From positions 25,252,356 through 25,316,355 of the forward strand of contig NC_089273.1 in assembly GCF_963678975.1 (NCBI RefSeq): 64,000 bases of DNA, written 5' to 3'. The position numbers were made by a program, and so were the translations under genes. The notes below the pieces were generated by a model that saw only the letters and a program-made list of their open reading frames with translations, ran no database searches and was not told where the DNA came from. Positions 8,215 to 60,793 of the stretch are shown here, piece after piece. This stretch comes from Dysidea avara (Eukaryota > Porifera > Demospongiae > Dictyoceratida > Dysideidae). How positions within the stretch are numbered: the first letter of the stretch is position 1; every line of letters starts with the position of its first letter.

Positions 8215-10855
8215 ATGACCATGTTTAAACTGATAATCATCATTGCAGTTTTGCTCCAGCAGAAGCTAACTTTTGCTGATGGTAAGCACATTTACATTGT
8301 ATTGTGAGTGTCATTACTGTTAGTGTAGTATTCATAGTGACTGAAAATATTTAAGTGTGGAATTGTAAATACAGATCTCATGTTACTGTTACTACTGTAA
8401 AATAAAGTAAACATCCACTTTTCTTTTGCAGATGCTTGTCATGTGGGATCACCAGCCTGTGAAAATGTGGCACCAGATTTCAACAAGACATTTGGAGAAT
8501 GCTGTAACAATTATGATCCACTGCAGAGACAAGATTCATTTGGTAGTGGCCCAGGAGTTGAAACCTGCATCCGTTGTGCCACACTAGGTAAGTCCAAAAT
8601 CAACAAATCATCACTTGCTACTATGCTTTGTATTAATAGGATGCCATGTTGATAAGAATTGTGCCAGTGAGACTGGTGACCAAGTATTCATTGTGGAAGA
8701 GTGTTGTTCTACAAGGAATAGGCGTTCCTTTAGGGACCCTAGCACTGGAACCTGTCATTTGTGTGCTTGTAAGGGGTACATACAGCAATATTATTGTGCA
8801 CATGAATACATATACTACGTACATACACACATACATATGTACATTAGTGCTGAAATGAATAGCATTTTTTACTATTCGAATAGTTGCAAACAAAATGACC
8901 GAATACTCGATTATTCTTTAAGCTTATACTTCTGTTGACAAGTACTGAAACCTTTTGTTAGGGAACAAGGTAGCTAAAGCGTAAGAACTACTTCTACAGT
9001 ATCTTTTCTAAAATAGAGTTTTTACAGTATAGATACATCACTTCAATTACAATCTTAAGTTTCAAGGCTGGGTTTTCCAACTGAATACAATGTACAAAGT
9101 GCTAACGATTATTCGAATAGTGTGTGTTAACAAATCGAATAGTGTCATACCTACCGAATAGTCAAATAACCGAATAATAGTTTCAGCACTAATCCACACA
9201 AACACACACGCACACACGCACGCATACACACACATACACGCACATACACATACATACGTACATATTAGCACACACTAGTGTGTATATTTCGTTTATGGAA
9301 TAAATTTAAATTTATGTGTGTCTACAAGTGAATTGCATGCACAACTTTTATTCTTAAGTATTGTCTCCCACTTTTTATAACCATTTGTATTTTTTGCAGT
9401 TTGTTTTGATGGAGATGACTGTGATGGTCCTGGAATATATGCTGATGATATCAGAGAGTGCGGAGCAATGCGTGGAAAGTTTTTCAAAGACCCTATGACA
9501 CATGAATGCAAACCCTGTGATCGTAAGTTTATTGTTAATATGTGCAACAGTCACATGGTCATAATTGTACACATTTCTATTGACATAATAGCTACTAAAT
9601 ATGTACAAGTATTCAACATCAATATTTCATGCAGTTTGCTTCCTTGGGGACACTTGTGATGGTGAAGGCACATTTGCTGCTAATTTCAGTGAATGCTGTT
9701 CCCTACCTGGAGCAGGATCCTACAAAGACCCTGATACCAAAACTTGCAAACGTTGCGAAGGTACATTTTATTATACATAATGGTGTATGTGAGTGTACTT
9801 AGTTACTGTATTTGTGTACATTAGGTGTGGTATAATGGTGTAGCTACTGTACATGTATACATGTGTATAAAATCAGTATTGTAATTACATATACTGTTTT
9901 AAGTTAGCAAAAACTATGATTACATGCAATTACTGCAAATAGTAGATAGCTTCTCCATTAGCACACATAACCTCACCTTGTGCTATGTTACCATCACAAC
10001 TATATGCATTTTAGCACAGTATTTTTGAATAGTATTTAACACTTCAACAATGAGCATCCATTACATGTTAAAATTTTGTTTTAACAGTTGAAGTGTGGGG
10101 AGATCCTCACTTCATTGTTCCACTACTATCAAAGGAATTATTGTGCTACTCCATCCAAGGATATCCTGGCTTGGCTTTCAACCTGATTTACAATAAGAAC
10201 TTTATCATTAATGCTCAGTTTGTGGATAGTGTTGGAGATACAAGTGAAGCTACCTGGATTGGCAAACTGGCTGTAATCCCTCACAACTCCAATGAATCTG
10301 AAGCTATCATATTTGATTCTGCTGAACAGACAGTTACTGTGGTTGGTCGTGGAAGTTTTAAGGCTTCGATAATCAAGAAAATAATAATCAGCGATAATGA
10401 TAAAGTCAAATTTATTCAGGGAATAGAAAAACAAACAGGAAATCCCACTGTACATGTATCATACACTGACCCACGAGCTGACTTTGATGTCAGCTTCCAT
10501 AGCAACCATCTCAATGTAGACTGGAATCTAAAATATGATGAGTTTGCTGACTTACATGGACTAATGGGTAAGAGTACTTGTTTTACATTACTGATATAAT
10601 TATATATATATATACTTCTCCTCTGTAGGTCAATTCATGATGAAGGGGGTTAACATTGACATACAGAGAGAGATGTTGATATACTCTGATGGACGAGATC
10701 CAGTACCAGTTACCAGAGACTCCACAATGACTGGTGATGCTGATAGACAATGTTGGAAAGTTATGAATTATGGCCACCAAGGAGAAGGACTTATCAAGGG
10801 AAGGATTCTTGATTATGTGGTGCCACATATTCTATCAGCTGATTTTAACCTGTAA
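8215..10855 (+). CDS. Gene A: secreted cysteine-rich / ITIH C-terminal domain protein
   Basis: Seven exons: 8215-8281, 8432-8587, 8640-8768, 9400-9522, 9635-9760, 10088-10567, 10629-10855. All introns are GT-AG and phase 1; the product is 435 aa. Residues 1-21 are a signal peptide (MTMFKLIIIIAV..., likely cut after TFA). Four cysteine modules follow, one per exon, of pattern CxxxxxC...ECC...RDPxTxTCxxC; the third has ECG instead of ECC. The last two exons encode an ITIH_C domain: GDPHFIVPL, LLCYSIQGYPG, WIGKLAV, HGLMGQF, VTRDS, QCWKV.N and GEGLIKG..DYVVPH. In vertebrate ITI heavy chains this region is C-terminal and the protein is extracellular; VIT and VWA domains are absent here. The ATG at 8221 could also serve as start, as in A'. 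The modules match no family I can name. Function is unknown; an extracellular structural or binding role is an inference. Confidence 0.9.
8843..9193. mobile_element. MITE in intron 3 of gene A
   Basis: Flanked by ATTAGTGCTGAAA and TTTCAGCACTAAT as inverted ends, with internal TATTCGAATAG/CGAATAGT motifs also inverted. The same element is at 40979-41329 in A', so it predates the duplication. A CA/CGCA microsatellite follows (9196-9262). Open frames here are accidental. Confidence 0.75.
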
Positions 10856-11632
10856 CTTCAACTCTAAAGTTGGACTTTTTCATGCTTTGCACACCATTAT
10901 CTAAAATGTACTAAATCGCAGCACAGATACACTATATAGCTACATAGATTCTTATAAATTAATTGCATATTAACATATTGATTTATTTTCATAATAAAGA
11001 TTAACCAGATTTATCAAAATCCACTGAAAACTTTTACAGAGTACCAGTCTGACAAATTAAAAGCTAGAGGTACAATACAAGCTGTTGATTTAACTATAAG
11101 AAGAGATAAAAAAATTAACTCTTGATATAATATCAAGCACTGTACCTAAATATTTGCTTTCATTCAGTACTACATTGATATTTTTTGTTTAGCTTGAAAC
11201 CTCCATCAATGAGACTACCTACTTCTACACTTGATAGTTATTTTAGTGATTCAGAAATAGCATTATAGTGAATAAAAATAAAGATGACACAATTGGTTTG
11301 GAGCCAATTAGTTGTTTAATTAATGCTGAAAATTGCATGGCAATACCAAAATGCTTTTGAAAGTTATGAGTCATGTAGGAAAGTTTTGTTTTCCCACATG
11401 TTCTTTTTTTTGCAGGCCCCAGTCACATAATAGTTTATATATTTACATGACTGGATTTGCAAAATGGGGTCTTCCACGCACAGTCGCACACAAGCATACA
11501 ATCTTCTGATCACTAATTCATAACTTCAGAATGGGAAAAGCTATTGACCTGAAATTTGATCAGTATAGTGAGCACCAATATAACTTAGAAAATGGTATAC
11601 ATAAAACCCTTTGATCTTTGTGTCTTTAAAAT

Positions 11633-11705
11633 CCACGAGGATCTTCGTGGCTTTAAAAACCCTTGTCTTCACCTTGGGTTTTTAAAATCACGAAGATCCT
11701 CGTGG
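11633..11705. repeat. Long hairpin (CCACGAGGATCTTCGTG arms)
   Basis: CCACGAGGATCTTCGTG and, after a short loop, CACGAAGATCCTCGTGG form arms of roughly 30 bases extended by TTTAAAAACCC / GGGTTTTTAAAA. It lies in the middle of the MITE-like stretch 11447-11840 and is retained in copy 2 at 43796-43868. Confidence 0.85.
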
Positions 11706-13680
11706 TAGGTCTCTAACTATTACTTAATGGTTGCAGAAATTTTCAGGCTTTCTGTATGTGTTTTTGAACATTAAGTTAGACTTTTTTTCAAGTTCATAGA
11801 ATCGGGTGTGTATGAAAAGTCCCATTTTCGCAAATCTGGCCTAATTTTTTTAACTTAAGTTTTTATTCTTTTACAGTTGAAGGCTTTTTTACGGTTTGCA
11901 AACATCCTTTTGTTTTGTTAAGATTCACAAACTACATCAACAATGTTAGCCTAACATTCCATGCACAATTGTGGTGCACTGTAGCAAACTTTAAAAATTA
12001 ATAATGCCAAAATAAGTTCAGTGATGTTGTGAGCTACAGTATGTTGCTTAAAGTTGCTTAAAGGCTACAATATTATTATTCCATGTGTTTTGCATTTAGT
12101 TACCATAAGCTAGTTATTCATAAGAAAACATATCGCAATCAAATCATAAACTGCACTAAAGTGTTTTGTAGTTGCAATTGTCTAAAGTGTTTTTTTTATG
12201 AAAATTCTCTCGACAAAGTAGTCTGGTTATCATTTTGAATGTGTGCCAGAAAGAATATGCTTCCTTTTAACTTGAGAGATATATATGTAAGAGTTATACC
12301 ACAGGCATGGGTGCTTTGCCTGGTATATATTATACACCACTTTTATTAGTGTGGGCATTCAAAGGCACTGTTTGGCGTTTAACTAGCATATTTCCTGGCA
12401 ATATCATAGGAATGCATAGATTCCCATGGCTTTGATGTCCAACTAGTTCAAAGATACAATACACTTTGAGTCATTATATTGAGCAATATGGAGCATTACA
12501 TTGTGGGATTCAATATTAGTTTCTTATCCAGGCGCTGAGTGTACTTGCAAAATAATAACTTATTATCCATGATAAATGATCACTGAATAGAGTAATTGTT
12601 AGGGTAATGCTTGAATGCATATCACAGCATAATTCATACACAAATTAATACTGACTGTACTTATTCCATCTATGTTTAGGTATTGGAACTAATAGTTCAA
12701 AAATTCTACCTTGGTTCAAATAAAAACAGACCACAGCCCTCAATAGTGAATAACCTTAGAGTCATTTATAGATTTGAGGTTCATTCTGTCTTATTATAGG
12801 GAATCTTTAAAATAGTTGTTCCAATACTGAATAAAGACGGGGTTAGAATAGGTAGTATTGGAACACTATTTTTGCTGTGTATATACTTCTATAGTTCTAT
12901 GCATCACGTATTAGCCATTTGAGCAGACCATGGAACAAGATCACTTTTAAATAGATTAGTCCTAAGTACAGTGTACTTTACTTATAATAATAGTAACATA
13001 CTTACTGTCCCAAAAGTGAAGTTACTGCAGTAGTCTTAATGCACGTAGTGCAAAGCAGTAAAGATAAAAACTCAAAACTTACAATTGTACGTAATTATAA
13101 GTTCTAACATTGCATATTGAAGCATAATAACACATGAGTAACATTTTGAGGGCTATTAGCCCATGTTTTTAAAACCACATTCAGTCATCAGATAAATGCA
13201 CTGTATGAAACCAACTGGGTGAGTGTTCTGTAGTTCTTTCACCAATTACGTAGGTGAGTGCATTATCACTTATACCATTGCTGCTTAGGGTTTGCTGATA
13301 CACCATCACCCACCACACTTGTGCATGCAGCCCTTGGGTCTGACTGTATATTTAAATCAGCAAAATCCCTTTCAGCCATGGTATAACTACATACATACAT
13401 GCATGTATACATATATTATACACACACATATATATATATAAATACACTCGTGAAGCATGCCAGCAGTTTCTTACATGTGTAGGTTATTAACCAATGTGGC
13501 ACATATTAGTTATACCATGGGCACTTGTGCTTTGCGTGATATACACACACTCGCACTCGGGCTAATTCCCTTGTGCTCGTGCGTATATATCAGGCAAAAC
13601 ACTCATGCCCATGGTTTAATAATTACATAATATAATATATATATTATATGTAAGAGTTAATACACTGCTGTGAGTGTGCT

Positions 13681-13800
13681 ATACATCAAAATAATATAGC
13701 ATGGAAAAGAGTGAGAGAGAGACAAAATAGCATAAGGCAAAGCTAGGTGCTATGTATATTTGGTCTCGAGACCATTATTTGAATGCTATATTTGATGTAT
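13681..13800. repeat. Inverted repeat (ATACATCAAA / TTTGATGTAT ends)
   Basis: Terminal arms ATACATCAAAATAATATAGCAT and ATGCTATATTTGATGTAT are inverted, with a perfect internal palindrome TGGTCTCGAGACCA. Probably a small MITE. The same sequence is at 45847-45966. Confidence 0.7.
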
Positions 13801-14529
13801 AACATGACCCGGCCGGGCAGTAATATTAATTGTTACAGAGAACCACCAACTTAAGGTACAAGCAAGAATCATTAAACAATTACTGGAAACTCATGGAGTA
13901 CTTCTGAAATTGATTATCCTTAGTAGAATAGGTATTTTTCCCGTGTTGCACCTTTGGATGAATCTAGCTAAGTCCAGTTTTGTAATGGCTAAAAGTTTTT
14001 GATTGCGGTACTTCATAAGCATATTATTGTGATATTCCTAGGACTCGTCCATTTATGTCAGCAAAACACGCGCCAATTCAAGTGTTCTATACCTATACAA
14101 CTGCCTTATATAGAACAGTTGTGCTCTGTATGGCTAGTATAGAATCATTATTGGTCCTCCTTTTATATATACTGTAAACCAATAGGTATGAGGTGCATTG
14201 CATTTATTATACATCCTGACTCTGAAGTCCGAGGAAATTTACTGTTGTTCACAGAGGGATTTATCAACAGTAATATGGAAATTGTTTATTCTGTGGACAC
14301 ATTCACTTTGAGGTGGAAATGACTCAAGGGGGAAACAAGGATTTATGAGGGGGGGAGGGCAATGGTGTGAAGACCCACGTGCTTACAATGTGTGTATATG
14401 CACATGACATCTAATAGTATGGAGGTACACTCCCCAATATTTATATATTTTTTGTATTTTAGACTCTCTCAGATTGCTTCTGACACATTCTTAGTATTAC
14501 CAGAAGTAATCTCAGGTTATTACAGTTCC

Positions 14530-14867
14530 CAGGGCCGCCCAGAGAAATTAAGGGGCCCAGGGCAAAGAGTTAAAGTGGGGCCCTTGACCCAAGTTGTAAG
14601 GTGAAGACCAAAAAAAAAAAAAGGTCACAACCTGTTGACAATGACAATAACTACTCATTACCCATCACCAACCATATCTCCTTATCTATAAGCTTGCTAC
14701 ACTGCTCCTCTGAAGAATACTGTGACTGCTCTATTAGAGTATATCGATCTTTTAAACAGGTATTCAGGGGGCCCTTCATGGGGCCTCCTGGGGCCCCTTT
14801 CAGGCTGGGACCCGGGGCAAAATGCCCCAGTTGCCCCCCCCCCCCCCCCCCCCTGTGGGCGGCCCTG
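14530..14867. mobile_element. hAT-like MITE, CAGGGCCGCCC family, with 8-bp target duplication
   Basis: Inverted ends CAGGGCCGCCC and GGGCGGCCCTG, flanked on both sides by ACAGTTCC (14522-14529 and 14868-14875), the 8-base duplication expected for hAT transposition. The interior has a GGTGAAGACC/poly-A/GGTCACAACC module and the CTCTATTAGAGTATATCGATC motif. The frames at 14601-15023 (+) and 14651-14929 (-) run through it and are not genes. Shared with copy 2 (46700-47011). Confidence 0.9.
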
Positions 14868-14875
14868 ACAGTTCC

Positions 14876-17800
14876 TGATGTATTCTCAGGTATACAATTC
14901 TCAGCTACTCTACATGCCAAAATACACATGTCATGTCAATATTACAGTTGTTCGAGATATAGACCATTCATTATTGGAACAATTTACCCCAGCAAATCAT
15001 TGAATCAGACTCAATTAATATAGTTTGTAACAGATTGCTGTACATCATCTTCTGAATCAATTGTCATGGCTGGACCAATAAAAATAATTGAAAATGAATT
15101 TATAGTGAGAGATCCAAATCAAGCAGCAACTCTTCCGTTCATAGACTTACTAATGATTAATTGCTGTGAACAATTATAGGGTGGTGTTGAGGGTCAGATA
15201 GCTACACGTGCCATCTGATTGATTTAGTACTGGCCAGACAGACAGACAGAGATAGACAGCTTTAGCTGATATTGTCCCAGGAAGAGTTGAAGCATCACAG
15301 CTTCAGTATACAATGTATACATACACCAAACTTAATGTAATGTAGACTTGATACATTATTTGGTGTTGTATAGTAATAATAAATAAGTAAATAAATAAAT
15401 ATAGGTACGTGCTGTAGGTAGATTTGTGTGATCGTGGTCATAGTGGTCTGACTAGCTCGATTTTTGCTGTGAGAGCCCAGCATGTGACATGTGACTTTAG
15501 TGATGACTATTAATTTTGATTATTATTAACTTGATCCCAAGACAATATGCTGCATCTAATGATTAAAACCATTTGTAGTAATTAGTGTAGCTTTGATGGA
15601 AGGTCACTGGTATGCCCTCAGAATTACAACTCCCTAAACCAATTAAATTTAATTGTTAATTTTATACATTTCAACTGTAGGTTTTCATCCCTATCCATGT
15701 ACTTGGTGATCCAAAACTTAGAACCCAGTCTAGGAAAGCTCTAGTATGAAGTTCTAGTATGAAGTATGCTGTGACTAGTATGAAGCTCTTAGTTACCTGA
15801 CTATTGACAGTAGAGTCTCCTGGATTTCTGAACAATGTCACAGAGTTCCGTCTACCATCTTCTCTCTCACCATCTACCATTTAACACAAATCATAATAAT
15901 TATCACTAGTTACTAACAACACTAATAATAGTAAACTTTAAATTAAATTTTTCTCCACCCCATAAGTAGCATTAATGATGATATGGATAGCAGTCTCCTG
16001 GATGTTTCTGCTGATATGATCAGTGAGACCCCAAAAAAGAAGCTAACATCTCCACATTCAATTTACTAAGGTTGTTGTAAAATGCTTTGCTATTGTAACA
16101 CCTTCTTCAGGTAGAGTCGATGCCACCGAACCATTAAGTTCTACAGTGGGAGGGATTGGAGAGACATCTGGACTGCTAACTAGAACAGAATGTCGTAGCT
16201 CTACAATCAATAGATCAACTGACCATTAAACAGCCAGAACATGTCACAATATAAATCAACTATGCATACTGGTGTCAATATTAAACCATAAAATCTATAT
16301 ACATTTAATAGTTAGCTAGCTAGCTATACCAAATACTTTGTTAACAGAACTTTATTACATGTCATGTGAGCAATAGTATGCATACTCATATTAGTGATGT
16401 CATAAGCAAACATACTATTCCAATTAATATTTCAAGTGCATAGCAACCTACGTACATAGTTTGAATTTTTTTTAAGTTTCTTTTTATGGAATGAAGAATG
16501 TTATTGTAGCTAACAATGTGTCTCACCACACAGTGCTTCTGTTCACCAACAACACTCCATTTTTCTTGCACACATCAACAAAACAATGCCAATGAGTTTT
16601 CTTTTAATTCAATTCATTGTTGGACACTTCATAAAAATTTTATGTAAAATAGCTAGATCATTTTTGCTTCAGTTTGTATGCAATAGCAAAAGCAAGGTGT
16701 CTTTTAGTTGTTACTCTATGTTATTAATCAATAGAGAATGCATAGCTTCTGTTGAACTGTGATGGAATCTGTTTCAGATTGAATACATGTGTTGTAATAT
16801 ACAATAGAATCTGCTGCTACCCAGCACACATTATACTACATACACATGTATGCACGTACATTGCTTAGATGGCCTCCCCGGTGCTTGACTTGCTGTTATG
16901 AATAACACAAAGTTTGTAAATTGAATGTGTGTGTGTAGAAGACACCATTTTACAAATCTGGTTACATTGTGACTGGATTTGTGAAAAAGGGGGTCTTCCA
17001 CAGAATCCACAAAATTCTATGAACTTCGAGGACCATAACTCAAGAAACATATTTATGTGAAAAAATTTCCATCCACTAAGCTATGTTGGTGCTCACTTAT
17101 GACCAAATGTGACCGGATTTGCAAAAAGGTACCTTTTCCACACATTTGACATACCAGCAAACAAAATGATGTAACACTTGCTTCCTTATACTGATTAACT
17201 TTCTCTTAGTATCAAAATGTAGCCAGATACTGTAGCTACTTTCAATGAAAATGTCAAGCAATTATACACCATGATAAAAAAGTTATGAAGCTTTAAAGTT
17301 CATAAAATGCGTCAAATTTTGTGTGTGAAAAAGGTACCTTTTTGCAACCTTGAAGTTATGAGTCGTCGAAGTTAGTAAATTAGATATGTGTGAATGACCC
17401 CTTTTTGCAAATCCAGTCACATATAATTTTGGAATGTGATGATTCAATGTACAGGGATTGTTTTCTGGTTCCAAGTGGGAAAATGAAATGCCACTTCAGT
17501 AAAAGTGCTATTTTTTAATGCTTCATGAATATCAGATAACAGCTCAATATGTGAACAGGTGTTGCAGAAACCATTTAAAAGGTAATTACAAGGTATCTGT
17601 GTAATTAAAGGCAATCAAATGCAAACTATACAGCTGGGTAATGTATTTGCTGAGAGATACCTAATGTTGATAAGACAGAACCCATTTTCATCCAAGTTTG
17701 TGAATTGTTTTCACTGTAATATAAAATATTTTATAACAAAGTTGGTATTACTGGTCTATAGTTATACAACATATCAAGCACATTTAAAACTTGTTTGATA

Positions 17801-18440
17801 AGAGATTACATTGAGGGTATGTGGATAATTAAAATTTGCTGGGCTGAATGGTTTTCATCAGTTATGGTTGTAGTACAGTTCAAATCATACTTGTGATGCA
17901 TACATACAGATATAGGATGTAGTTACCTGTTAATTCCTTAGCCATTCAACCATTTCCCAAGAACATTATAACTGTTACAGTATAATAATGATGGTTTGTT
18001 AATGTAATGAAATAATTATGCATAATTACACTGAATACATTGGGTAAGTAATGATTATATAAAATGTTTTATGCAAGCGTAAAGCATCCCCTCTAAGTTT
18101 AAGTATTATCAACCTATTTTTTTTTATTCAGTTACAGTGTTTCGTATGAATGAGTCATTTCAGTAGCACAACAGTGTCATGTAGGTGTTGCTAAGCTACA
18201 TTACTTCTCATTCCTTATAAGAAGTCCCTACCTACACAGTTGAATTCTTATAGATATTTAAACTTCATGTTCAAATTACAGTAATTGTTAATTTGAAATG
18301 AAATATAGTGCATGTACAAAGTAGCTGAAATATATGCACAATGCAGCCACATGGTTTAGAATCATGGCTGGAGTGTTGGAGTATTTGTACGTGACTGGTT
18401 GCTGTCAAGCCACAGCCATTAAGTGCACATATGGCTTTAA
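14876..18440. other. Intergenic region upstream of gene B
   Basis: AT-rich, near-identical to 47020-51040. It contains a (GACA)n tract near 15236-15260, a short AAAT repeat near 15383-15400, the MITE pair listed at 16972-17422 and the empty site GTCGTAGC (16192-16199). No open frame shows a recognisable domain. Confidence 0.5.
16972..17422. mobile_element. Composite of GTGACCGG-type MITEs
   Basis: GTGACTGGATTTGTGAAAAAG at 16972, GTGACCGGATTTGCAAAAAG at 17109 and the inverted TTTTTGCAAATCCAGTCAC near 17401-17420 suggest one element inserted in another. GGTACC occurs next to the inner copies, as in 3638-3894. Present in both block copies. Confidence 0.65.
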
Positions 18441-18448
18441 TGATTTTG

Positions 18449-18456
18449 TATAAAAG
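18449..18456 (+). promoter_or_regulatory. TATA box of gene B
   Basis: TATAAAAG in TTGTATAAAAGAAGCTG, about 113 bases upstream of the start codon. Same core as the other paralogues. Confidence 0.7.
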
Positions 18457-18568
18457 AAGCTGTTTCACCATTCACAATAGACAGCTGTGCAATATACTGT
18501 ATTTATTGGTTGCAGTTTGCAATATTCATCTACAAAATAGGTAGTTGTTAGTGATTGCATTGGAGACG

Positions 18569-20363
18569 ATGATGCTTAAGTTGCTAGCAGTCATTGCAGT
18601 TTTGAGACTGACCTTTGCAAATGGTGAGAAATTTGTATTGCAAGTACTACATCACATGTGTGACACACTTAACAGCTTGGCTAAATGCATTATGTTGTCA
18701 TTGTGTATGCAATGTAGTCAGAACAGTTTGAAATCTCAAATGTATATATCTGATAGCAAAATATATGGCTGTTAGAATCACTACTTTACTAGTGTTATCA
18801 AATTGTTTTTTCTTTGCAGATGGCTGCTTTATAGGGTCACCAGCATGTGAAAATGTGACGCCAGATTTCAATGCAACATTTGGAGAATGTTGTAACAGTT
18901 TTGATCCACTGCAGAGACAAGATTCATTTGGCAGTGGTCCAGGAATGCAAACATGCATTCGTTGTGCCACACTAGGTGAGACCATTTAATTTTACTATTA
19001 TTATAATATCATTGTATTACTGATGGTAATATCTACATAATAGGATGTCACGTGGATAAGAACTGTGCCAGTGAAACTGGTGATGAAGTTGCTACTATTG
19101 AAGAATGTTGTGCAATAAGAAACAGACGTTCCTTTAGAAACCCTGATACAGGAACTTGTCATTTATGTGCAAGTATGCAACTTTAATTTCACTTTGTGCA
19201 TCTTTAGAGTATTTGTAGTGTTGATAGTTTAGCATGACTTCACTGTGTGGTTTGAATATGAGATTCATTTATTAAAGTGTTTGAACTCTTTTACAGATTG
19301 CTTCTTTAGTGGTAGTTGTAATGGTGTTGGAACATTTGCTGACGACATGACAGACTGCTGTGCAATGCCAGGAGCTAGACGTTATAGAGATCCAATGACT
19401 ATGATGTGTGAGCGTTGCCCAGGTATGTATGCGATTTGTGTAATTTAGAAACATGTTAAGCTACAGCAAGAGATCCTCCTACCCAATTAAAATTGACTAT
19501 TGTTAATTGTTTGATGTTTAGTACTACAAACATACGCAATTATGTTGTTCATTCATTTTTATAATAATTGTTATTTACTACTAATACATTAGATATGGAG
19601 ATGTATGGTGATCCTCACTTCATTGTTCCACTACTATCAAAGGAATTATTGTGCTACTCCATCCAAGGATATCCTGGCTTGGCTTTCAACCTGATTTACA
19701 ATAAGAACTTCATCATTAATGCTCAGTTTGTGGATAGTGTTGGAGATACAAGTGAAGCTACCTGGATTGGCAAGTTGGCTGTAATCCCTCACAATTCTAA
19801 TAGCTCTGAAGCTATCATATTTGATTCTGCTGAACAGACAGTTACTGTGGTCGGTCGTGGAAGTTTCAAGGCTTCAATTATCAAGAAAATGATCATCAGC
19901 AATAATGATAAAGTCAAATTCATTCAGGGAATAGAAAAACAAACAGGAAATCCCACTGTACATGTATCATACACTGACCCACGAGCTGACTTTGATGTCA
20001 GCTTCCATAGCAACCATCTCAATGTAGACTGGAATCTAAAATATGATGAGTTTGCTGACTTACATGGACTAATGGGTAAGAGTACTTGGGTTTTCTTTAC
20101 ATTACTGATATAGTCATACATGCTTCTCCTCTGTAGGTCAATTCATGAGGAAAGGGGTTGACATTGACATACAGAGAGAGATGTTGATATACTCTGATGG
20201 ACGAGATCCAGTACCAGTCACCAGAGACTCCACAATGACTGGTGACGCTAATAGACAATGTTGGAAAGTGATGAATTATGGCCACCAAGGAGAAGGACTG
20301 ATAAAAGGAAAGATTCTCGATTATGTGGTGCCACATATTTTATCAACTGACTTTAACCTGTAA
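18569..20363 (+). CDS. Gene B: secreted cysteine-rich / ITIH C-terminal domain protein
   Basis: Six exons: 18569-18623, 18820-18975, 19044-19172, 19297-19422, 19593-20075, 20137-20363; GT-AG, all phase 1, 391 aa. The signal peptide is MMLKLLAVIAVLRLTFA. Three six-cysteine modules follow (first cysteines at CFIGSPAC, CHVDKNC, CFFSGSC), then the ITIH_C domain starting at MYGDPHFIVPL and ending ILSTDFNL. Compared with gene A one module exon is missing, which the phase 1-1 exons allow without a frame change. The frame extends upstream from a TTG at 18545, but the two ATGs at 18569/18572 directly precede the hydrophobic stretch and are preferred. From GATCCTCACTTC onward the DNA is almost identical to gene A, while introns and modules before it differ strongly. 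Confidence 0.9.
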
Positions 20364-20976
20364 CTTTCTACAAGTCACTTTACATTAATTTTGTGTTCTA
20401 TCCTTGTGCGTGCAAAGATGTGCACTTATTATTATTGTACATGTATTTAATATCAGACCTATAAGCTTATAAACAGTGTGCAACTTTATGTGTGTTACCA
20501 ATATTATTGTATTTAACATTCTGTAACTTATCATATTAACACTTTATTCACTTTGAAAGAAACAATTGTATATCAATCATCAAGCCAATACATACCACCA
20601 ATGAGTCACATGCGCTTGATGACTATACTATTGGAGGTAAAAAAACACATGCTGTAGCTAATTCACTTTATGCTGACAATTTTCTGTACATACATTGTAC
20701 TAGCAATATCACACGCACTATACCATAATTCACTCTTTATTGTTGTCAAATAATCTTCTAACATTTGTGACCGGATTTGCAAAAGGGTACCTTTTTTACA
20801 CACAAAATTTAACCCTTTATTTGAACTTAGAAGCTTCATAACTTGTTTATCATTGCATATAATTTCCTGAATGTTTCCATGAATGCAGTTAATGTATCTG
20901 ACTGCATTTGAAACTAAGAGCAAGTTAATTACATATGTCTTATGTGGATACAGGCTTCTGAAATAGTGATGATTTG
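20364..20976. other. 3' flank of gene B and upstream flank of pseudogene C
   Basis: AT-rich. A GTGACCGGATTTGCAAAAGG motif at 20767 marks the edge of another MITE of that family, close upstream of the relic TATA box. No gene seen. Confidence 0.5.
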
Positions 20977-21198
20977 TATAAAAGCAGCTGCATTGCGGTA
21001 ATCGGCAACAACAGAATCTGTGAAACTTTGCAAGTTAAGCACTGTCGATAACCATAAAGTCAAGAGCCACAGAAGGTATCAATGCAACTGGTGCAAAGTA
21101 GTACATTAATGAGCATAGTATGTACATGTTGTGAGAAAACAGGTTTAAAAAGTGGACTTTTCTCCTACTCAAGAGAGCATTGCAGCCAAACAGATGAT

Positions 21199-24205: not shown

Positions 24206-24255
24206 TCCTAGATTATGTGGTGCCGCACATCCTTTCTGCTGACTTTAACCTCTAA

Positions 24256-41350: not shown

Positions 41351-41402
<52 letters not shown>

Positions 41403-46699: not shown

Positions 46700-47011
46700 C
46701 AGGGCCGCCCAGAGAAATTAAGGGGCCCAGGGCAAAGAGTTAAAGTGGGGCCCTTGACCCAAGAAAAAAAAAAAAAAGGTCACAACCTGCTGACAATGAC
46801 AATAACTACTCATTACCCATCACCAACCATATCTCCTTATCTATAAGCTTGCTACACTGCTCCTTTGAAGAATACTGTGACTGCTCTATTAGAGTATATC
46901 GATCTTTTAAACAGGTATTCAGGGGGCCCTTCATGGGGCCTCCTGGGGCCCCTTTCAGGCTGGGGCCCGGGGCAAAATGCCCCAGTTGCCCCCCCCCTGT
47001 GGGCGGCCCTG
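46700..47011. mobile_element. hAT-like MITE, CAGGGCCGCCC family (shared insertion)
   Basis: Orthologous to 14530-14867: the same ACAGTTCC duplications at 46692-46699 and 47012-47019. The C-run and part of the poly-A foldback are shorter than in copy 1. Confidence 0.9.
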
Positions 47012-47019
47012 ACAGTTCC

Positions 47020-48340
47020 TGATGTATTCTCAGGTATACAATTCTCAGCTACTCTACCTGCCAAAATACACATGTCATGTCAATATTACAGTTGTTCGAG
47101 ATATAGACCATTCATTATTGGAACAATTTACCCCAGCAAATCATTGAATCAGACTCAATTAATATAGTTTGTAACAGATTGCTGTACATCATCTTCTGAA
47201 TCAATTGTCATGGCTGGACCAATAAAAATAATTGAAAATGAATTTATAGTGAGAGATCCAAATCAAGCAGCAACTCTTCCGTTCATAGACTTACTAATGA
47301 TTAATTGCTGTATAGGGTGGTGTTGAGGGTCAGATGGCTACATGTGCCATCTGATTGATTTAGTACTGGCCAGACAGACAGACAGAGATAGACAGCTTTA
47401 GCTGATATTGTCCCAGGAAGAGTTGAAGCATCACAGCTTCAGTATACAATGTATACATACACCAAACTTAATGTAATGTAGACTTGATACATTGTTTGGT
47501 GTTGTATAGTAATAATAAATAAATAAATAAATATAGGTACATGCTGTAGGTAGATTTGTGTGATCGTGGTCATAGTGGTCTGACTAGCTCGATTTTTGCT
47601 GTGAGAGCCCAGCATGTGACATGTGACTTTAGTGATGACTATTAATTTTGATTATTATTAACTTGATCCCAAGACAATATGCTGCATCTAATGATTAAAA
47701 CCATTTGTAGTAATTAGTGTAGCTTTGATGGAAGGTCACTGGTATGCCCTCAGAATTACAACTCCCTAAACCAATTAAATTTAATTGTTAATTTTATACA
47801 TTTCAATTGTAGGTTTTCATCCCTATCCATGTACTTGGTGATCCAAAACTTAGAACCCAGTCTAGGAAAGCTCTAGTATGAAGTTCTAGTATGAAGTATG
47901 CTGTGACTAGTATGAAGCTCTTAGTTACCTGACTATTGACAATAGAGTCTCCTGGATTTCTGAACAATGTCACAGAGTTCCGTCTACCATCTTCTCTCTC
48001 ACCATCTACCATTTAACACAAATCATAATAATTATCACTAGTTACTAACAACACTAATAATAGTATTTAAATTAAACTTTAAATTAAATTTTTCTCCACC
48101 CCATAAGTAGCATTAATGATGATATGGATAGCAGTCTCCTGGATGTTTCTGCTGATATGATCGGTGAGACCCCAAAAAAGAAGCTAACATCTCCACATTC
48201 AGTTTACTAAGGTTGTTGTAAAATGCTTTGCTATTGTAACACCTTCTTCAGGTAGAGTCGATGCCACCGAACCATTAAGTTCTACAGTGGGAGGGATTGG
48301 AGAGGCATCTGGACTGCTAACTAGAACAGAATGTCGTAGC
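47020..48340. other. Intergenic, no gene recognised
   Basis: Matches 14876-16199. No recognisable coding exon. Confidence 0.5.
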
Positions 48341-48796
48341 TAGGCATGAGGCTATTATGCTCCAAAAATTGAGCATTATGCTTTTGAGCAGTGCTCAAAA
48401 AATCACCTATTATGCTTTTGAGAATTGCCCATTATTCCCAAAATTATGCCACCATAATTGGCTAATAATGCCAGTTTATTGCTGTATCAGACCATTTTCA
48501 TTGATGTTTAGGCTTCAAATAGTCTTGAATTCTTTAGCTGGTTACTGTATTAGAGAATTTCATTTCAATATGACTGCTTTATTAGAGTAAATAATATTCA
48601 ATGACTGTCCTATTAGAGTTTCTGACTGCTCTATTAGAGTACAGTATCTCGATCTTTTTTAACGGAATTGTGCAATCTGCAGATTTTCCTACTGTTAAAG
48701 CTTTATAATCACCTCAAAATGCTAGCATAATTCCTGATTTCCACACATACCTATAATTATGCCCGAAATTATGCCAGCATAATTGCCGCATCCCTA
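48341..48796. mobile_element. hAT-like element with TAGG(C/G)ATG ends, copy 2 only
   Basis: Starts TAGGCATGAGGCTATTATGC and ends GCCGCATCCCTA, imperfect inverted repeats, flanked by an exact 8-base duplication GTCGTAGC (48333-48340, 48797-48804). Copy 1 has this once at 16192-16199. The interior repeats ATTATGC(T/C) motifs and holds four variants of CTGCTCTATTAGAGTA. No transposase. Confidence 0.9.
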
Positions 48797-48804
48797 GTCG
48801 TAGC

Positions 48805-51049
48805 TCTACAATCAATAGATCAACTGACCATTAAACAGCCAGAACATGTCACAATATAAATCAACTATGCATACTGGTGTCAATATTAAACCATAAAATC
48901 TATATACATTTAATAGTTAGCTAGCTAGCTATACCAAATACTTTGTTAACAGAACTTTATTACATGTCATGTGAGCAATAGTATGCATACTCATATTAGT
49001 GATGTCATAAGCAAACATACTATTCCAATTAATATTTCAAGTGCATAGCAACCTACGTACATAGTTTGAATTTTTTTAAGTTTCTTTTTATGGAATGAAG
49101 AATGTTATTGTAGCTAACAATGTGTCTCACCACACAGTGCTTCTGTTCACCAACAACACTCCATTTTTCTTGCACACATCAACAAAACAATGCCAATGAG
49201 TTTTCTTTTAATTCAATTCATTGTTGGACACTTCATAAAAATTTAATGTAAAATAGCTAGATCATTTTTGCTTCAGTTTGTATGCAATAGCAAAAGCAAG
49301 GTGTCTTTTAGTTGTTACTCTATGTTATTAATCAATAGAGAATGCATAGCTTCTGTTGAACTGTGATGGAATCTGTTTCAGATTGAATACATGTGTTGTA
49401 ATATACAATAGAATCTGCTGCTACCCAGCACACATTATACTACATACACATGTATGCACGTACATTGCTTAGATGGCCTCCCCAGTGCTTGACTTGCTGT
49501 TATGAATAACACAAAGTTTGTAAATTGAATGTGTGTGTAGAAGACACCATTTTACAAATCTGGTTACATTGTGACTGGATTTGTGAAAAAGGGGGTCTTC
49601 CACAGAATCCACAAAATTCTATGAACTTCGAGGACCATAACTCAAGAAACATATTTATGTGAAAAAATTTCCATCAACTAAGCTATGTTGGTGCTCACTT
49701 ATGACCAAATGTGACCGGATTTGCAAAAAGGTACCTTTTCCACACATTTGACATACCAGCAAACAAAATGATGTAACACTTGCTTCCTTATACTGATTAA
49801 CTTTTTCTTAGTATCAAAATGTAGCCAGATACTGTAGCTACTTTCAATGAAAATTTCAAGCAATTATACACCATGATCAAAAAGTTATGAAGCTTTAAAG
49901 TTCATAAAATGCGTCAAATTTTGTGTGTGAAAAAGGTACCTTTTTGCAACCTTGAAGTTATGAGTCGTCGAAGTTAGTAAATTAGATATGTGTGAATGAC
50001 CCCTTTTTGCAAATCCAGTCACATATAATTTTGGAATGTGATGATTCAATGTACAGGGATTGTTTTCTGGTTCCAAGTGGGAAAATGAAATGCCACTTCA
50101 GTAAAAGTGCTATTTTTTAATGCTTCATGAATATCAGATAACAGCTCAATATGTGAACAGGTGTTGCAGAAACCATTTAAAAGGTAATTACAAGGTATCT
50201 GTGTAATTAAAGGCAATCAAATGCAAACTATACAGCTGGGTAATGTATTTGCTGAGAGATACCTAATGTTGATAAGACAGAACCCATTTTCATCCAAGTT
50301 TGTGAATTGTTTTCACTGTAATATAAAATATTTTATAACAAAGTTGGTATTACTGGTCTATAGTTATACAACATATCAAGCACATTTAAAACTTGTTTGA
50401 TAAGAGATTACATTGAGGGTATGTGGATAATTAAAATTTGCTGGGCTGAATGGTTTTCATCAGTTATGGTTGTAGTACAGCTCAAATCATACTTGTGATG
50501 CATACATACAGATATAGGATGTAGTTACCTGTTAATTCCTTAGCTATTCAACCATTTCCCATGAACATTATAACTGTTACAGTATAATAATGATGGTTTG
50601 TTAATGTAATGAAATAATTATGCATAACTACACTGAATACATTGGGTAAGTAATGATTATATAAAGTGTTTTATGCAAGCGTAAAGCATCCCCTCTAAGT
50701 TTAAGTATTATCAACCTATTTTTTTTATTCAGTTACAGTGTTTCGTATGAATAAGTCATTTCAGTAGCACAACAGTGTCATGTAGGTGTTGCTAAGCTAC
50801 ATTACTTCTCATTCCTTATAAGAAGTTCCTACCTACACAGTTGAATTCTTACAGATATTTAAACTTCATGTTCAAATTACAGTAATTGTTAATTTGAAAT
50901 GAAATATAGTGCGTGTACAAAGTAGCTGAAATATATGCACAATGCAGCCACATGGTTTAGAATCGTGGCTGGAGTGTTGGAGTATTTGTACGTGACTGGT
51001 TGCTGTCAAGCCACAGCCATTAAGTGCACATATGGCTTTAATGATTTTG
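48805..51049. other. Intergenic region upstream of gene B'
   Basis: Matches 16200-18448, including the GTGACCGG-type MITE pair (about 49573-50022). No gene recognised. Confidence 0.5.
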
Positions 51050-51057
51050 TATAAAAG
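51050..51057 (+). promoter_or_regulatory. TATA box of gene B'
   Basis: TATAAAAG in TTGTATAAAAGAAGCTG, the same context as gene B. Confidence 0.7.
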
Positions 51058-51166
51058 AAGCTGTTTCACCATTCACAATAGACAGCTGTGCAATATACTG
51101 TATTTAGTGGTTGCAGTTTGCAATATTCATCTACAAAATAGGTAGTTGTTAGTGATTGCATTGGAG

Positions 51167-52954
51167 ATGATGATGCTTAAGTTGCTAGCAGTCATTGCAG
51201 TTTTGAGACCGACCTTTGCAAATGGTGAGAAATTTGTATTGCAAGTACTACATCACATGTGTGACACACTTAACAGCTTGACTAAATGCATTATGTTGTC
51301 ATTGTGCATGCAATGTAATCAGAACAGTTTGAAATCTCAAATGTATATATCTGATAGCAAAATATATGGTTGTTAGAATCACTACTTTACTAGTGTTATC
51401 AAATAATATTGTTTTTTCTTTGCAGATGGCTGCTTTATAGGGTCACCAGCATGTGAAAATGTGACGCCAGATTTCAATGCAACATTTGGAGAATGTTGTA
51501 ACAGTTTTGATCCACTGCAGAGACAAGATTCATTTGGCAGTGGTCCAGGAATGCAAACATGCATTCGTTGTGCCACACTAGGTGAGACCATTTAATTTTA
51601 CTATTATTATAATATCATTGTATTACTGATGGTAATATCTACATAATAGGATGTCACGTGGATAAGAACTGTGCCAGTGAAACTGGTGATGAAGTTGCTA
51701 CTATTGAAGAATGTTGTGCAATAAGAAACAGACGTTCCTTTAGAAACCCTGATACAGGAACCTGTCATTTATGTGCAAGTATGCAACTTTAATTTCACTT
51801 TGTGCATCTTTAGAGTATTTGTAGTATTGATAGTTTGGCATGACTTCACTGTGTGGTTTGAATATGAGATTCATTTATTAAAGTGTTTGAACTCTTTTAC
51901 AGATTGCTTCTTTAGTGGTAGTTGTAATGGTGTTGGAACATTTGCTGACAACATGACAGACTGCTGTGCAATTCCAGGAGCTAGACGTTATAGAGATCCA
52001 ATGAGTATGACTTGTGAGCGTTGTCCAGGTGTGTATGTAATTCTGTGTAATTTAAAAACATGTTTAGAGATCCTCCTACACAATTACAATTGATTATTAT
52101 TAATTGTTTGATGTGTAGTGCTACAAACATATGCAATTATGTTGCTCATTCATTTTATAATAATTGTGATTTACTATTGATAGATATGGAGATTAATGGA
52201 GATCCTCATTTCATTGTCCCACTACTATCAAAGGAGTTATTGTGTTACTCCATCCAAGGATATCCTGGCTTGGCTTTCAATCTGATTTACAATAAGAACT
52301 TCATCATTAATGCTCAGTTTGTGGATAGTGATGGAGATACAAGTGAAGCTACCTGGATTGGCAAACTGGCTGTAATCCCTCACAATTCCAATAGCTCTGA
52401 AGCTATCATATTTGATTCTGCTGAACAGACAGTTACTGTGGTTGGTCGTGGAAGTTTCAAGGCTTCAATTATCAAGAAAGTGATCATCAGCAATAATGAT
52501 AAAGTCAAATTTATTCAGGGAATAGAAAAACAAACAGGAAATCCCACTGTACATGTATCATACACTGACCCAAGAGCTGACTTTGATGTCAGCTTCCATA
52601 GCAACCATCTCAATGTAGACTGGAATCTAAAATATGATGAGTTTGCTGACTTACATGGACTAATGGGTAAGAGTACTTGGTTTTTCTTTACATTACTGAT
52701 ATAGTCATACATGCTTCTCCTCTGTAGGTCAATTCATGAGGAAAGGGGTTGACATTGACATACAGAGAGAGATGTTGATATACTCTGATGGACGAGATCC
52801 AGTACCAGTCACCAGAGACTCCACAATGACTGGTGACGCTAATAGACAATGTTGGAAAGTGATGAATTATGGCCACCAAGGAGAAGGACTGATAAAGGGA
52901 AAGATTCTCGATTATGTGGTGCCACATATTTTATCAACTGACTTTAACCTGTAA
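51167..52954 (+). CDS. Gene B': secreted cysteine-rich / ITIH C-terminal domain protein
   Basis: Six exons: 51167-51224, 51426-51581, 51650-51778, 51903-52028, 52184-52666, 52728-52954; GT-AG, phase 1, 392 aa. Three ATGs in a row open the frame (an ACG in gene B is ATG here), followed by the LKLLAVIAVLRPTFA signal peptide. Three six-cysteine modules and an intact ITIH_C domain follow. Differences from B include DNM for DDM and SMTC for TMMC in module 3, and SDGD for SVGD and KKV for KKM in ITIH_C. The ITIH_C exon begins MEINGDPHF, and its first 60 bases share several silent bases with pseudogenes C/C' and gene D rather than with gene B, hinting at patchwork conversion. Confidence 0.9.
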
Positions 52955-53577
52955 CTTTCTACAAGCCACTTTACATTTGTGTTCTATCCTTGTGCGTGCA
53001 AAGATGTGCACTTATTATTATTGTACATGTATTTAATATCAGACCTATAAACTTATAAACAGTGTGCAACTTTATGTGTGTTACCAATATTATTGTATTT
53101 AACATTCTGTAACTTATCATATTAACACTTTATTCACTTTGAAAGAAACAATTGTATATCAATCATCAAGCCAATACATACCACCAATGAGTCACATGCG
53201 CTTGATGACTATACTATTGGAGGTAAAAAAAACACATGCTGTAGCTAATTCACTTTATGCTGACAATTTTCTGTACATACATTGTACTAGCAATATCACA
53301 CGCACTATACCATAATTCACTCTTTATTGTTGTCAAATAATCTTCTAACATTTGTGACCGAATTTGCAAAAGGGTACATTTTTCACACACAAAATTTAAC
53401 CCTTTATTTGAACTTAGAAGCTTGATATCTTTTTTATCATCGCATATAATTGCCTCAACATTTCCATGAATGCAGTTAATGTATCTGACTGCATTTGAAA
53501 CTAAGAGCAAGTTAATTACATAATTTATGTCTTATGTGGATACAGGCTTCTGAAATAGTGATGATATGATTGATTTA
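52955..53577. other. 3' flank of gene B'
   Basis: Homologous to 20364-20976, but noticeably more diverged from copy 1 than the gene B/B' region is. A GTGACCG-type MITE edge is at 53354. No gene recognised. Confidence 0.5.
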
Positions 53578-53935
53578 TATAAAAGCAGTTGCATTGTGGC
53601 AATTGGCAACAACAGAATCTGTGAAAGTTTGCAAGTTAAGCATAATTTGTACACTGTCAATAACCATAAAGTCAAGAGCCACATAAGGTATCAAATCAAC
53701 TGGTGCATAGTAGTATATTGAAGAATTGAAAAGCATAGTTGTGAGAAAATGGGTTTAAAAAGTGCTTCTGCTCAAGAGAGCATTTCGGCCAAACAGATGA
53801 TTAGTAGTGATAGTAAAGGTGTCCAGCAAAGGTAAGTGCAGTTTAGCTCCCGGCCATTACAAGTTATGGTGTTAGTGGATAGCTATGTAGGTCATAGCAT
53901 ACCACACACTTTTATTATGTCCACATAGGAAATCA

Positions 53936-54483
<548 letters not shown>

Positions 54484-54557
54484 AATGTATGTTGAAAACT
54501 TTCATTAATCATTAATCATAAATTAAGTGTCAAAAATTCCATTATACATGTAAATCT

Positions 54558-55036
54558 GCTAACATTGAAGATGGAGCTAGGCTTGACGTAAGTACAGAAA
54601 GTTTTTGGGGCAGGAGAAGAAGATGGCCTTTTTTGATATAAAAGTTTTTAGCCCTTTGGCTGCTTCCTATTCCTCCTCCCCTCTGGCTCAATGTTATCAT
54701 CAGGCTGAACTGGACAAGAAGAGAATGTGTGATGAGCGAATATGTGAGGTAGAAAGGGGCACTTTCTCTCCTTTGGTGTTTTCATGCACTGGAGGGATGG
54801 GCCCAATTGCAACTGTTGTCTACAAAAGACTTGTAACTCTTATTTCTGAGAAATGGGGTGATCTATATAGTCAAACTCTATTTTGGATAAGATGTAAACT
54901 CTCTTACTCTTTACTCCACTCAACAGTGATGTGTTTAAGGGGTTCAAGATCAACACACTACAGATGTAATATACAATTGCAAGATCTGGCTATTCACTTG
55001 GCCTGTTCCAACAGTATGGAACTTCTGAATCAATAA
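54558..55036 (+). pseudogene. C-terminal fragment of a retroelement polyprotein, copy 2 only
   Basis: Frames reading EDGARLDV..FWG, then (after a shift near 54610) MAFFDIKVFSPLA, QCYHQAELDKKRMCDERI, SPLVFSCTGGMGP, VVYKRLVTLIS, LSYSLLHSTVMCLRGSRS match the conserved tail seen after the reverse transcriptase in a common invertebrate retroelement lineage. This tail looks like a restriction-like nuclease (D..F.D.(R/K)VF). The frame ends at a TAA at 55034. The element is 5' truncated and carries the shift, so it is dead. Copy 1 lacks it (about 22030-22065). Which clade it belongs to is uncertain. Confidence 0.65.
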
Positions 55037-56340
55037 TCTATAGTGTATGTATACAAATGTTTGATATGTGCTTTATAACAGTTTTAAAAATAAATAATTA
55101 AGAAGTATAAATGAGCCAAATTTTGAAAGCTTGTGTTTGAGAGCTCAGCTCAATGTGTACTAGCTATAGCTGTATGTTGTCATAGATAATTGATTATCTA
55201 TATAAAAGTACTATTTCCTTTTGTAGTGGCATGACACATTAGTTCACCATCGTGTAACATTATAAGTCAAACATTGCAGCATTATTCCTGAATTATGCAA
55301 CACTTTTACTCCTTTGGGAAAAGGCAAAATTCATCTAGAAGTACTGATGCATTCATTCATGTGCAACACTTAATGAGATATCATATTCTTGTGAACAAAT
55401 TGTCTATGATGCTTAGTAAGATGTCAAAAAATAACTGTGCAAGTAAGAATGGTGATGAAGTAGACAGTTTCTGATGCTGTACAATGAGGAACAAGTGATC
55501 TTTTGGAAATTCCAATGATGGAACATATCAACTTTGTAGTAGTATGTTAATTGCAAATTTTTATCAAATACTTACTTATGTATGTACAGATGGCTACAAA
55601 AGTAAGAATTGCAAAGTAAACAACAAGCATATGCAAACACACTGGATGAACATTGTTCACTACCTAGACAAGGTTCCTACCTGACACAGAGACCTGCCAA
55701 ACCTAGCTTCCCAGGTTTGCAAAATAGCGTAAGTACTAGCCTACTAATTTTTGGGTTTAGTGCAATAGCAGATTTATAAAGAATTTAATATTATTGTAAT
55801 TTAGTTATGTATATATGCATGAACATGTTATTAGTTACATTCCATACAGTGACCATTTACACTTTCAGCAAATCCAACAGACATATTAGGGAAATCCTCA
55901 TTTCATTGTCCCACTACTATCAAAGGAATTATTGTGTTATTTCATCCAAGGATATCCTGGCTTGGTTTTTAACCTGATTTACAATAAGAACTTCATCATT
56001 AATGCTCAGTTTGTGGATAGTGTTGGAGATACGAGTGAAGCTACCTGGATTGGCAAGTTGGCTGTAATCCCTCACAACTCCAATGAATCTAAAGCTATCA
56101 TATTTGATTCTGCTGAACAGACAGTTACTGCAGTAGGTCATGGAAGTTGCACGGCTTCACTTATAAAGAAAATAATAATCAACAATGATGACAAAGTCAA
56201 ATTTATTTCAGGGTATAGAAAAACAAACAGGAAATCCCACTGTACATGTATCATACTGACCCACAAGCTGACATTGATGTCAATTTCCATAGCAACCACC
56301 TCAATGTAGAGAATATGATAACTTACATAGACTAATGGGT

Positions 56341-58940: not shown

Positions 58941-59002
58941 CAGCTGTAAATGCAGCTGCAGACACTTCTGCTATAATTTGCTACATCGTTCATTTAGTGT
59001 AA

Positions 59003-60793
59003 ATGATGGAAGCAGTGAATGTATGCAAGTTGATTATAACTGGTATACTTTTCATGAGCATAAAGCCAGCAGCTGCACAACGTAAGTGTACTACAGTGGA
59101 ATTTTGTGCTTTGTTAATTATAGCAGTTTGTTGCAGCTAATAAATGACTGTCAAAACATATTTTTCCTTATACAGTTGGATGTCACATTGGTTCACCATC
59201 ATGTAACAGTCAGAATCCAAACACTGCAGCATTGTTCCCTGCTTGCTGTAAAACTTTTACACCTCGGCAAAGACAAGATTCATTTAGAAGTGGTGATGCG
59301 TGCATTCGCTGTGCTACACTTGGTGAGATGACATGATGCACTTGTTCACATATAAAAGTAGATGACTGTTTGTGATGTTTAGGTTGTCATGTAGACAAAA
59401 ACTGTGCAAGTGAGACTGGTGATGAAGTAGCCAGCTATGAAGATTGCTGTGCAATGAGGAATAGAAGGTCTTTTAGGAATCCCAATGATGGAACATGTCA
59501 ACTATGCAACAGTATGTTAATTCTTTCTTGTTAAATGTTCTACTCAATTCTTGTGATGTAGATTGCTACAAAAACAAGAACTGCAGAGGAAATAATGCTG
59601 TCTATGCTGACACTTGGAAAGAATGCTGTGCACAATTTGAACAAGGTTCCTACAATGATCCTGACACTGAGAATGCCACACTTGCACAGGTTTGTTAATA
59701 AGTTCTTATACAGTAGCTTGACTGATATTTTTGGGTTTACAGTTGGTAGTAGTAACCTTATAAAAGCATAATTTTAGAAAAATTATGTATCAACTGAATG
59801 ATTATAAATATGCCACCTATGATGAATCCACCACACATATATGTGACTGGGCCTGTGAAAACAGGGCATGTGGGCACACAAAATTTTGCTAAAGAATGCA
59901 AATAGAGTATAGCAGTACTAAGATATAATCTTTTAGGTGATGGAATGTAGTTTGTACCCAAATTCCCTGTTTTCGCAGGCCCGGTCACATATGGTGACCC
60001 TCACTTCCCTCAATTCTGTTTTAACAGGTGGAGTATGGGGAGATCCTCACTTCATTGTCCCACTTCTATCAAAGGAATTATTGTGTTATTCCATCCAAGG
60101 ATATCCTGGCTTGGCTTTCAACCTGATTTACAATAAGAACTTCATTATTAATGCTCAGTTTGTGGATAGTGTTGGAGATACAAGTGAAGCTACCTGGATT
60201 GGCAAGTTAGCTGTAATCCCTCACCACTCCAATAGCTCTGAAGCTATCATATTTGATTCTGCGGAACAGACGATTACTGTGGTTGGTCGTGGAAGTTTCG
60301 AAGCTTCAATTATCAAAAAAATAATCATCAGCAATAACGATAAAGTCACATTTATTCAGGGAATAGAAAAACAAACAGGAAATCCCACTGTACATGTATC
60401 ATACACTGACCCACGAGCTGACTTTGATGTCAGCTTCCATAGCAACCATCTCAATGTAGACTGGAATCTAAAGTATGATGAGTTTGCTGACTTGCATGGA
60501 CTAATGGGTAAGAATTTTAATTTTAGCATTATATACTAAAAAAATTATACATGTCTTCCTCCACAGGCCAATTTATGAGGAAAGGTGTTGACATTAACAC
60601 ACAGAAACAGATGTTGATTTACTCTGACGGACGAGATCCAGTACCAGTAACCAGGGACTCCACAATTACTGGTGATAGTGGTAAACAATGTTGGAAAGTG
60701 ATGAATTATGGTCATCAAGGAGAGGGACTGATACAGGGAAAGATCCTAGATTATGTGGTGCCTCACATCCTTTCTGCTGACTTTAACCTCTAA
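59003..60793 (+). CDS. Gene D: cysteine-rich / ITIH C-terminal domain protein with a 1-base frameshift
   Basis: Six exons: 59003-59081, 59176-59322, 59383-59511, 59562-59689, 60028-60507, 60567-60793. The signal peptide is MMEAVNVCKLIITGILFMSIKPAAA. Three cysteine modules start CHIGSPSC, CHVDKNC and CYKNKNC; an intact ITIH_C domain ends ILSADFNL. All introns are GT-AG and phase 1, but exon 4 is 128 bases instead of a multiple of three. After DPDTE the expected TCxxC reading is found one base out of frame (TGC CAC ACT TGC), so one base is missing at about 59672 and the direct frame meets a stop in the intron. Either the gene is newly broken or the base is a sequencing error. This is the founder type of relics C and C', with modules well diverged from A and B. 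Confidence 0.75.
59839..59992. mobile_element. Small MITE in intron 4 of gene D
   Basis: ATGTGACTGGGCCTGTGAAAACAGGG and its inverse CCCTGTTTTCGCAGGCCCGGTCACAT bound about 155 bases. Related in plan to the GTGACCGGATTTGC family. Confidence 0.8.

Follow-up and report, generated by a model that had tools for sequence, protein, structure and literature searches.

Vertebrate ITI heavy chains are joined to chondroitin and hyaluronan by an ester linkage, an exceptional arrangement associated with a single protein architecture, in which VIT and VWA domains precede a C-terminal pro-domain (Pfam ITI_HC_C) that begins at a DPHF motif and has a VWD-like predicted fold. In ITIH3, 5 and 6 the related motif GDPH lies in a VWD-like sandwich, and these proteins may be self-cutting; in FCGBP, self-cutting stabilizes the D10 domain (PMC10880436). 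Here a 64,000-nucleotide stretch of the sponge Dysidea avara genome (contig NC_089273.1, positions 25,252,356 to 25,316,355; "the window") is described, which holds seven copies of one gene type (A, B, C, A', B', C' and D) on the + strand at 8215–60793, as first located in a preliminary description and borne out by the sequence and exon models. Where ITI heavy chains have VIT and VWA, the window genes have small cysteine modules, followed by a tail that scores under the Pfam cut-off and is very probably a homologue of the ITI pro-domain. The domain and its chemistry are of known kinds; a literature search found no description of an ITIH pro-domain freed from VIT/VWA and spread over several cargos, nor of the cysteine module.

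The C-terminal Domain

The tail is 235 aa long, with 229 residues after the Asp of GD in gene A, compared with 239–244 in the ITI heavy-chain pro-domain. Profile-to-profile comparison of the tail with Pfam-positive ITI_HC_C of the same genome gave a probability of 99.4 and a pairwise expectation value (E) of 3e-21 over 155 columns. A profile built from 22 relatives of the tail domain (the A1 profile) was also run against L046, a canonical gene on contig C7 of this genome (VIT E 7.7e-5, VWA E 1.3e-18, ITI_HC_C E 1.4e-7), whose pro-domain reached 43.8 bits, against 7.8 bits for the best of 1000 shuffles. Kinship is weaker in the last exon, which reached 12.8 bits with the canonical gene (best shuffle 8.7) and 25.5–29.8 bits with three Pfam-positive relatives; a last-exon motif and the exon junction after HG(L/I/M)(M/L/I)G are common to the window tails and the canonical gene. 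Across the genome (550.8 Mb in 108 contigs, the window lying on contig C2), ITI_HC_C exceeds its cut-off at 15 places, all outside the window, and a direct genome search with the A tail finds 10 of these 15 (E 4e-14 to 3e-11).

The Pfam results weigh against this assignment. No family exceeded its cut-off in A or B, ITI_HC_C, VIT, VWA, VWD and Calx-beta included, and ITI_HC_C was above its cut-off in 0 of the 22 A1 relatives. The preliminary description had regarded the lack of a significant ITI_HC_C match as telling against an ITIH domain; taken literally, this is the Pfam outcome, which is overruled by the profile and intermediate-sequence evidence. The tail can thus be regarded, with high confidence on sequence grounds, as a homologue of the ITI heavy-chain C-terminal pro-domain, and it covers the whole of that domain, starting at its cut site (G)DPHF. 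The earlier picture of an ITIH domain devoid of VIT and VWA holds for A and B, where the kinship is one of profiles and neither domain is found, and was incomplete in three respects: the domain is shuffled genome-wide, canonical VIT-VWA-ITI_HC_C genes are also present, and the start at the DPHF processing site had been missed. A VIT search of the genome returned 27 places, none on contig C2.

DPHF stands at the tail start in 57 of the 58 copies counted, which comprise 38 loci (L001–L038) and a second sample of 20 hand-picked from the 45 further tail places listed. GDPHF accounts for 29 of the 38 loci, QDPHF for 4, KDPHF for 4 and GNPHF for 1 (pseudogene C), and all 20 further places have DPHF, preceded by G in 17 and by A, N or E in the other three. 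Outside this count, L047, L048 and L051 have GDPHF, C' has GNPHF, and the canonical pro-domain starts with SDPHF. In gene A the motif, with its predicted Asp-Pro cut site, lies at 10099–10113. Asn in place of Asp is seen in the dead copies C and C' only, and probably reflects one event, since C and C' are duplicates; in FCGBP, Asp-to-Asn at the GDPH Asp abolishes self-cutting (PMC10880436). Some disrupted copies within the 58 keep DPHF, including L035 and L068, which have stops in the exon, and other matched stretches are also marked with stops.

The nearest solved folds to the predicted tail model are VWD domains, and the VIA alignment of the model begins at its Pro3 and at residue 4081 of FCGBP D10, in a low-confidence part of the model. 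The predicted fold and the position of GDPH appear to resemble those of VWD domains whose GDPH cuts itself, as found in FCGBP, MUC2/MUC5AC, RGMB and SUSD2. The tail differs from these in sequence, as no Pfam VWD match was obtained in A, B or the 22 A1 members and the one VWD of the same genome that was tried gave no match to the A1 profile, and in having no C8 or TIL attached in the window genes.

Distribution of the Domain in the Genome

When the genome was searched with the A tail, at least 83 places on 13 contigs started within tail residues 1–7, 7 in the window and 76 outside; these were counted by hand among the matches listed, disrupted copies included, and all lie on contigs numbered C1–C15. 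Because so many places begin at the same domain residues, the tail is not a chance match. Upstream domains were inspected at nine chosen places, with linkage to the tail judged from proximity and strand. Upstream of the tail were a Reeler domain on contig C3 (E 7e-6), VIT-VWA in the canonical gene on C7, Calx-beta elsewhere on C7 (E 1.8e-8), a C8-TIL-VWD-C8-TIL series on contig C5 (VWD E 3.2e-34), cysteine modules in a further gene, E, on C2, and, at L048 on contig C8, a VWA domain (E 3.6e-36) followed by a lengthy Asp/Lys repeat whose reading frame continues into the tail. Two inspected places on C13 had no named domain upstream, and at one on C2 nothing was found in 4.4 kb of upstream sequence. 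By the same criterion of proximity and strand, cysteine modules also precede the tail on contigs C1, C3 and C6. The tail is best read as a portable two-exon cassette that appears to have been reused behind other cargo.

At L048 (279–2120, − strand) the tract between the VWA domain and the cassette comprises ∼440 residues, chiefly a DKDD-type repeat, and so strongly charged a tract might bind mineral or glycan. On contig C7, at 14796473–14948275 (L046, L047 and L049), ITI_HC_C occurs at four places, at three of them preceded by VIT at a distance of 4–5 kb, and two cassettes of the window type, one of them the cassette beside Calx-beta, are found within ∼150 kb of these. It is possible that this cluster is the birthplace of the shuffled cassette.

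The Cysteine Module

Each module occupies one exon and follows the pattern C-x5-6-C…CC…C-x2-C. In an alignment of 20 modules, 10 from the window and 10 from six other loci, five of the six Cys are invariant and the sixth is present in at least 90%. The preliminary description could name no family for the module, and none emerged here: Pfam gave nothing credible for the 20 modules (weak matches to unrelated families in 2/20 and 1/20, best E 0.0027), and a sequence search of the PDB found no match. Structure prediction of one module, as had been suggested, produced a confident AlphaFold2 model (predicted local distance difference test score, pLDDT, 91.3), for which a fold search of the PDB likewise found no match. 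The closest comparison is with the six-Cys small secreted modules TIL, VWC and knottins, which are similarly disulphide-rich and encoded one per phase-1 exon, whereas the window module has no credible match in Pfam or the PDB. Module 3 of A (9400–9522) and of A' (41560–41682) lacks one member of the CC pair; its Cys count is then odd, and a thiol is perhaps free for an inter-chain link.

Proposed Mechanism and Alternatives

It is proposed that the protein would enter the secretory pathway, where the folded cassette would strain the Asp-Pro bond of GDPHF, leading, as in its relatives, to self-cutting. The cargo, three to four six-Cys modules now ending in Asp, would then no longer be held by the cassette. 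Release is proposed because in the window genes the stretch from the last module to GDPH is free of Cys, and the A cassette has only two, which presumably pair. In the least certain step, the new C-terminal Asp would be esterified to a chondroitin-sulphate-like chain, as in ITI heavy chains, placing the modules on a matrix glycan. Such a polymer is plausible, given the presence of CHGN-family synthases in the genome (15 places over cut-off, exon pieces counted). By analogy with the relatives, self-cleavage at Asp-Pro is probable, and ester linkage of the Asp to a glycan is a reasonable possibility whose likelihood falls a little short of even. The proposal as a whole, in which a self-cleaving cassette homologous to ITI_HC_C releases the cargo, which would then probably be ester-linked to a glycosaminoglycan, is likewise put forward tentatively, with nearly balanced prospects.

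The cut might instead occur without separating the halves, as in FCGBP and RGMB, so that it merely settles the fold and no glycan is joined. The VWD domains that are the nearest solved folds, and the stabilizing effect of cutting on FCGBP D10 noted above, are consistent with this, but the window genes have no Cys between the last module and the motif that could tie the first strand, whereas FCGBP has a disulfide from that strand to the domain, and it is the ITIH pro-domain, not the one VWD tried, that the A1 profile matches by sequence; retention of the halves is accordingly rated as rather doubtful. Loss of cutting, with the cassette serving as a folding or binding domain and DPHF kept for structure, would fit the Q or K before DPHF in the A2 types and the A, N or E at three more places, the survival of DPHF in some disrupted copies, and the fact that no activity is known for the cassette. 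The retention of Asp, Pro and His in 57 of 58 copies, with Asn confined to dead C and C', weighs against this reading, which is rated the least probable of the alternatives.

A further possibility places the window genes in the sponge aggregation-factor system, with the cassette either the "Wreath" domain itself or something related to it, and with a role in cell-cell recognition in which modules diversify and tails are homogenized. Calx-beta, VWD and Wreath domains belong to sponge aggregation factors, which, like the cassette genes, form tandem, diversifying clusters, and elsewhere in the genome the cassette adjoins Calx-beta and VWD-C8-TIL. Synonymous divergence in the tail exons is also far below that in modules 1–2, as expected of gene conversion: for A/B, A/D and B/D, respectively, differences per site come to 0.54, 0.76 and 0.71 in the modules and to 0.16, 0.29 and 0.26 in the tail exons (Fisher p 6e-8, 2e-9 and 9e-9). 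Gene conversion of the tail exons would explain this most simply, in short tracts, given that the intron separating them is 62–69% alike (other introns 46–60%). However, modules 1–2 of A and B show no sign of positive selection (nonsynonymous divergence, dN, 0.109; synonymous divergence, dS, 0.934), and a literature search found nothing on a wreath domain with sponge aggregation factor. The window genes differ in having neither Calx-beta nor VWD (Calx-beta repeats were absent from A and B by Pfam and were found beside the related cassette on C7). Membership in that system appears unlikely, and the release of cargo from an ITIH-type cassette is preferred.

If an early animal lineage has this processing domain on dozens of secreted proteins, ester linkage may have arisen earlier and be much more widespread than its vertebrate instance suggests, and the family would allow the joining of sponge matrix proteins to glycans to be tested directly. 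In the broadest and more doubtful form of the proposal, the ITIH pro-domain would have become a self-cleaving conjugation tag of general use. Dozens of secreted proteins whose cargos are unrelated (strings of cysteine modules, VWA with Asp/Lys tracts, Calx-beta, VWD-C8-TIL, Reeler) would each finish with a DPHF cassette, and its self-cutting would leave a C-terminal Asp able to form an ester with matrix glycan, so that proteins are tagged and anchored as the extracellular matrix is built. Protein-glycan assembly and the cutting of chains in sponge aggregation factors might rest on such a tag too. The tail may thus be a tag that is used repeatedly to attach proteins to matrix, and the module provides a small disulphide unit of confidently predicted structure for which no match was found.

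Gene Organization and Tandem Duplication

Intact genes consist of a signal-peptide-like start, three to four one-module exons and a two-exon C-terminal domain. Gene A encodes 435 aa in seven exons with AG/GT borders and phase-1 joints: a signal-like exon ending in phase 1 (8215–8281), four module exons (8432–8587, with AG-GT borders and a length that is a multiple of 3; 8640–8768; 9400–9522, with Gly for one Cys of the CC pair; and 9635–9760), and the first and final pro-domain exons (10088–10567 and 10629–10855). Gene B (18569–20363; 391 aa) has six exons, with three modules between the signal-like exon and the two-exon pro-domain; A' (40357–43015, seven exons) is a tandem copy of A that begins at its second Met, and B' (51170–52954, six exons) is a tandem copy of B. 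The architecture that had been ascribed to all seven loci is intact in the models of these four. Gene D (59003–60793) has a signal-like exon, two modules and open pro-domain exons, and its fourth exon (59562–59689) is frame-broken if spliced as in the paralogues; C and C' are decayed pseudogenes. The signal peptides of the original account were upheld by eye, without a predictor, in that the first exons are signal-peptide-like.

A TATA box, TATAAAAG, lies at 8115–8122, 100 bases 5' of the ATG of gene A. The same sequence precedes the first ATG of genes A, A', B, B' and D by 70–120 bases and is found at the start of pseudogenes C and C' as well; these seven loci account for 7 of its 12 + strand occurrences in the window. 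The position of the TATA box just 5' of a signal-like exon 1 argues, on genomic rather than transcript evidence, against missing upstream VIT/VWA exons in the window genes.

Locus C (20977–24257) retains a TATA region, three module relics (22186–22681) and a pro-domain from 22868 (GNPHF), and C' (53578–56336) a TATA region, an exon 1 relic (53615–53674), three module relics (55231–55702) and a pro-domain from 55890 (GNPHF), with the frame of the C-terminal exons broken in both. The module relics of each and exon 1 of C' were recovered by blastn, which at the head of C recovered the TATA region only, an exon 1 relic there being judged by eye. The last exon of C also carries an insertion (∼23583–24205), which is probably a mobile element because a similar stretch, as judged by eye from translations, seemingly lies at 522–812; a 7-base duplication (CCTAGAT) possibly flanks it. 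Gene E lies just beyond the window at about C2:25329.3–25338.9 kb; all but 3 kb in its middle was examined, which revealed the tail, no fewer than three modules, a TATA box and a start that looks signal-like by eye.

Comparison of the window with itself by blastn revealed a tandem duplication whose core copies, 3894–21212 and 35633–53817, are ∼97% identical, and whose end pieces, 2302–3282 and 22060–23289 (which holds C), are 89–90% identical to their partners. Between A and A', 4 of 433 residues differ, and between B and B', 9 of 391. Near-identity of the core, together with the heterozygosity of that order possible in sponges, would be compatible with A', B' and C' being a leftover second haplotype in the assembly and not real genes. 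The copies lie on one contig with unlike sequence between them, however, the end pieces including C and C' are merely 89–90% alike, and dS is unequal (0.034 for A/A', 0.066 for B/B'), which makes an assembly artifact improbable and favors true duplication. Between the two cluster copies, a 375-aa open frame at 28600–29727 contains an NB-ARC domain (E 4e-9) and may belong to an NLR-like or APAF-like gene, and an open frame at 31464–32225 with a weak zf-RVT match (E 2e-4, under cut-off) is likely a retroelement remnant.

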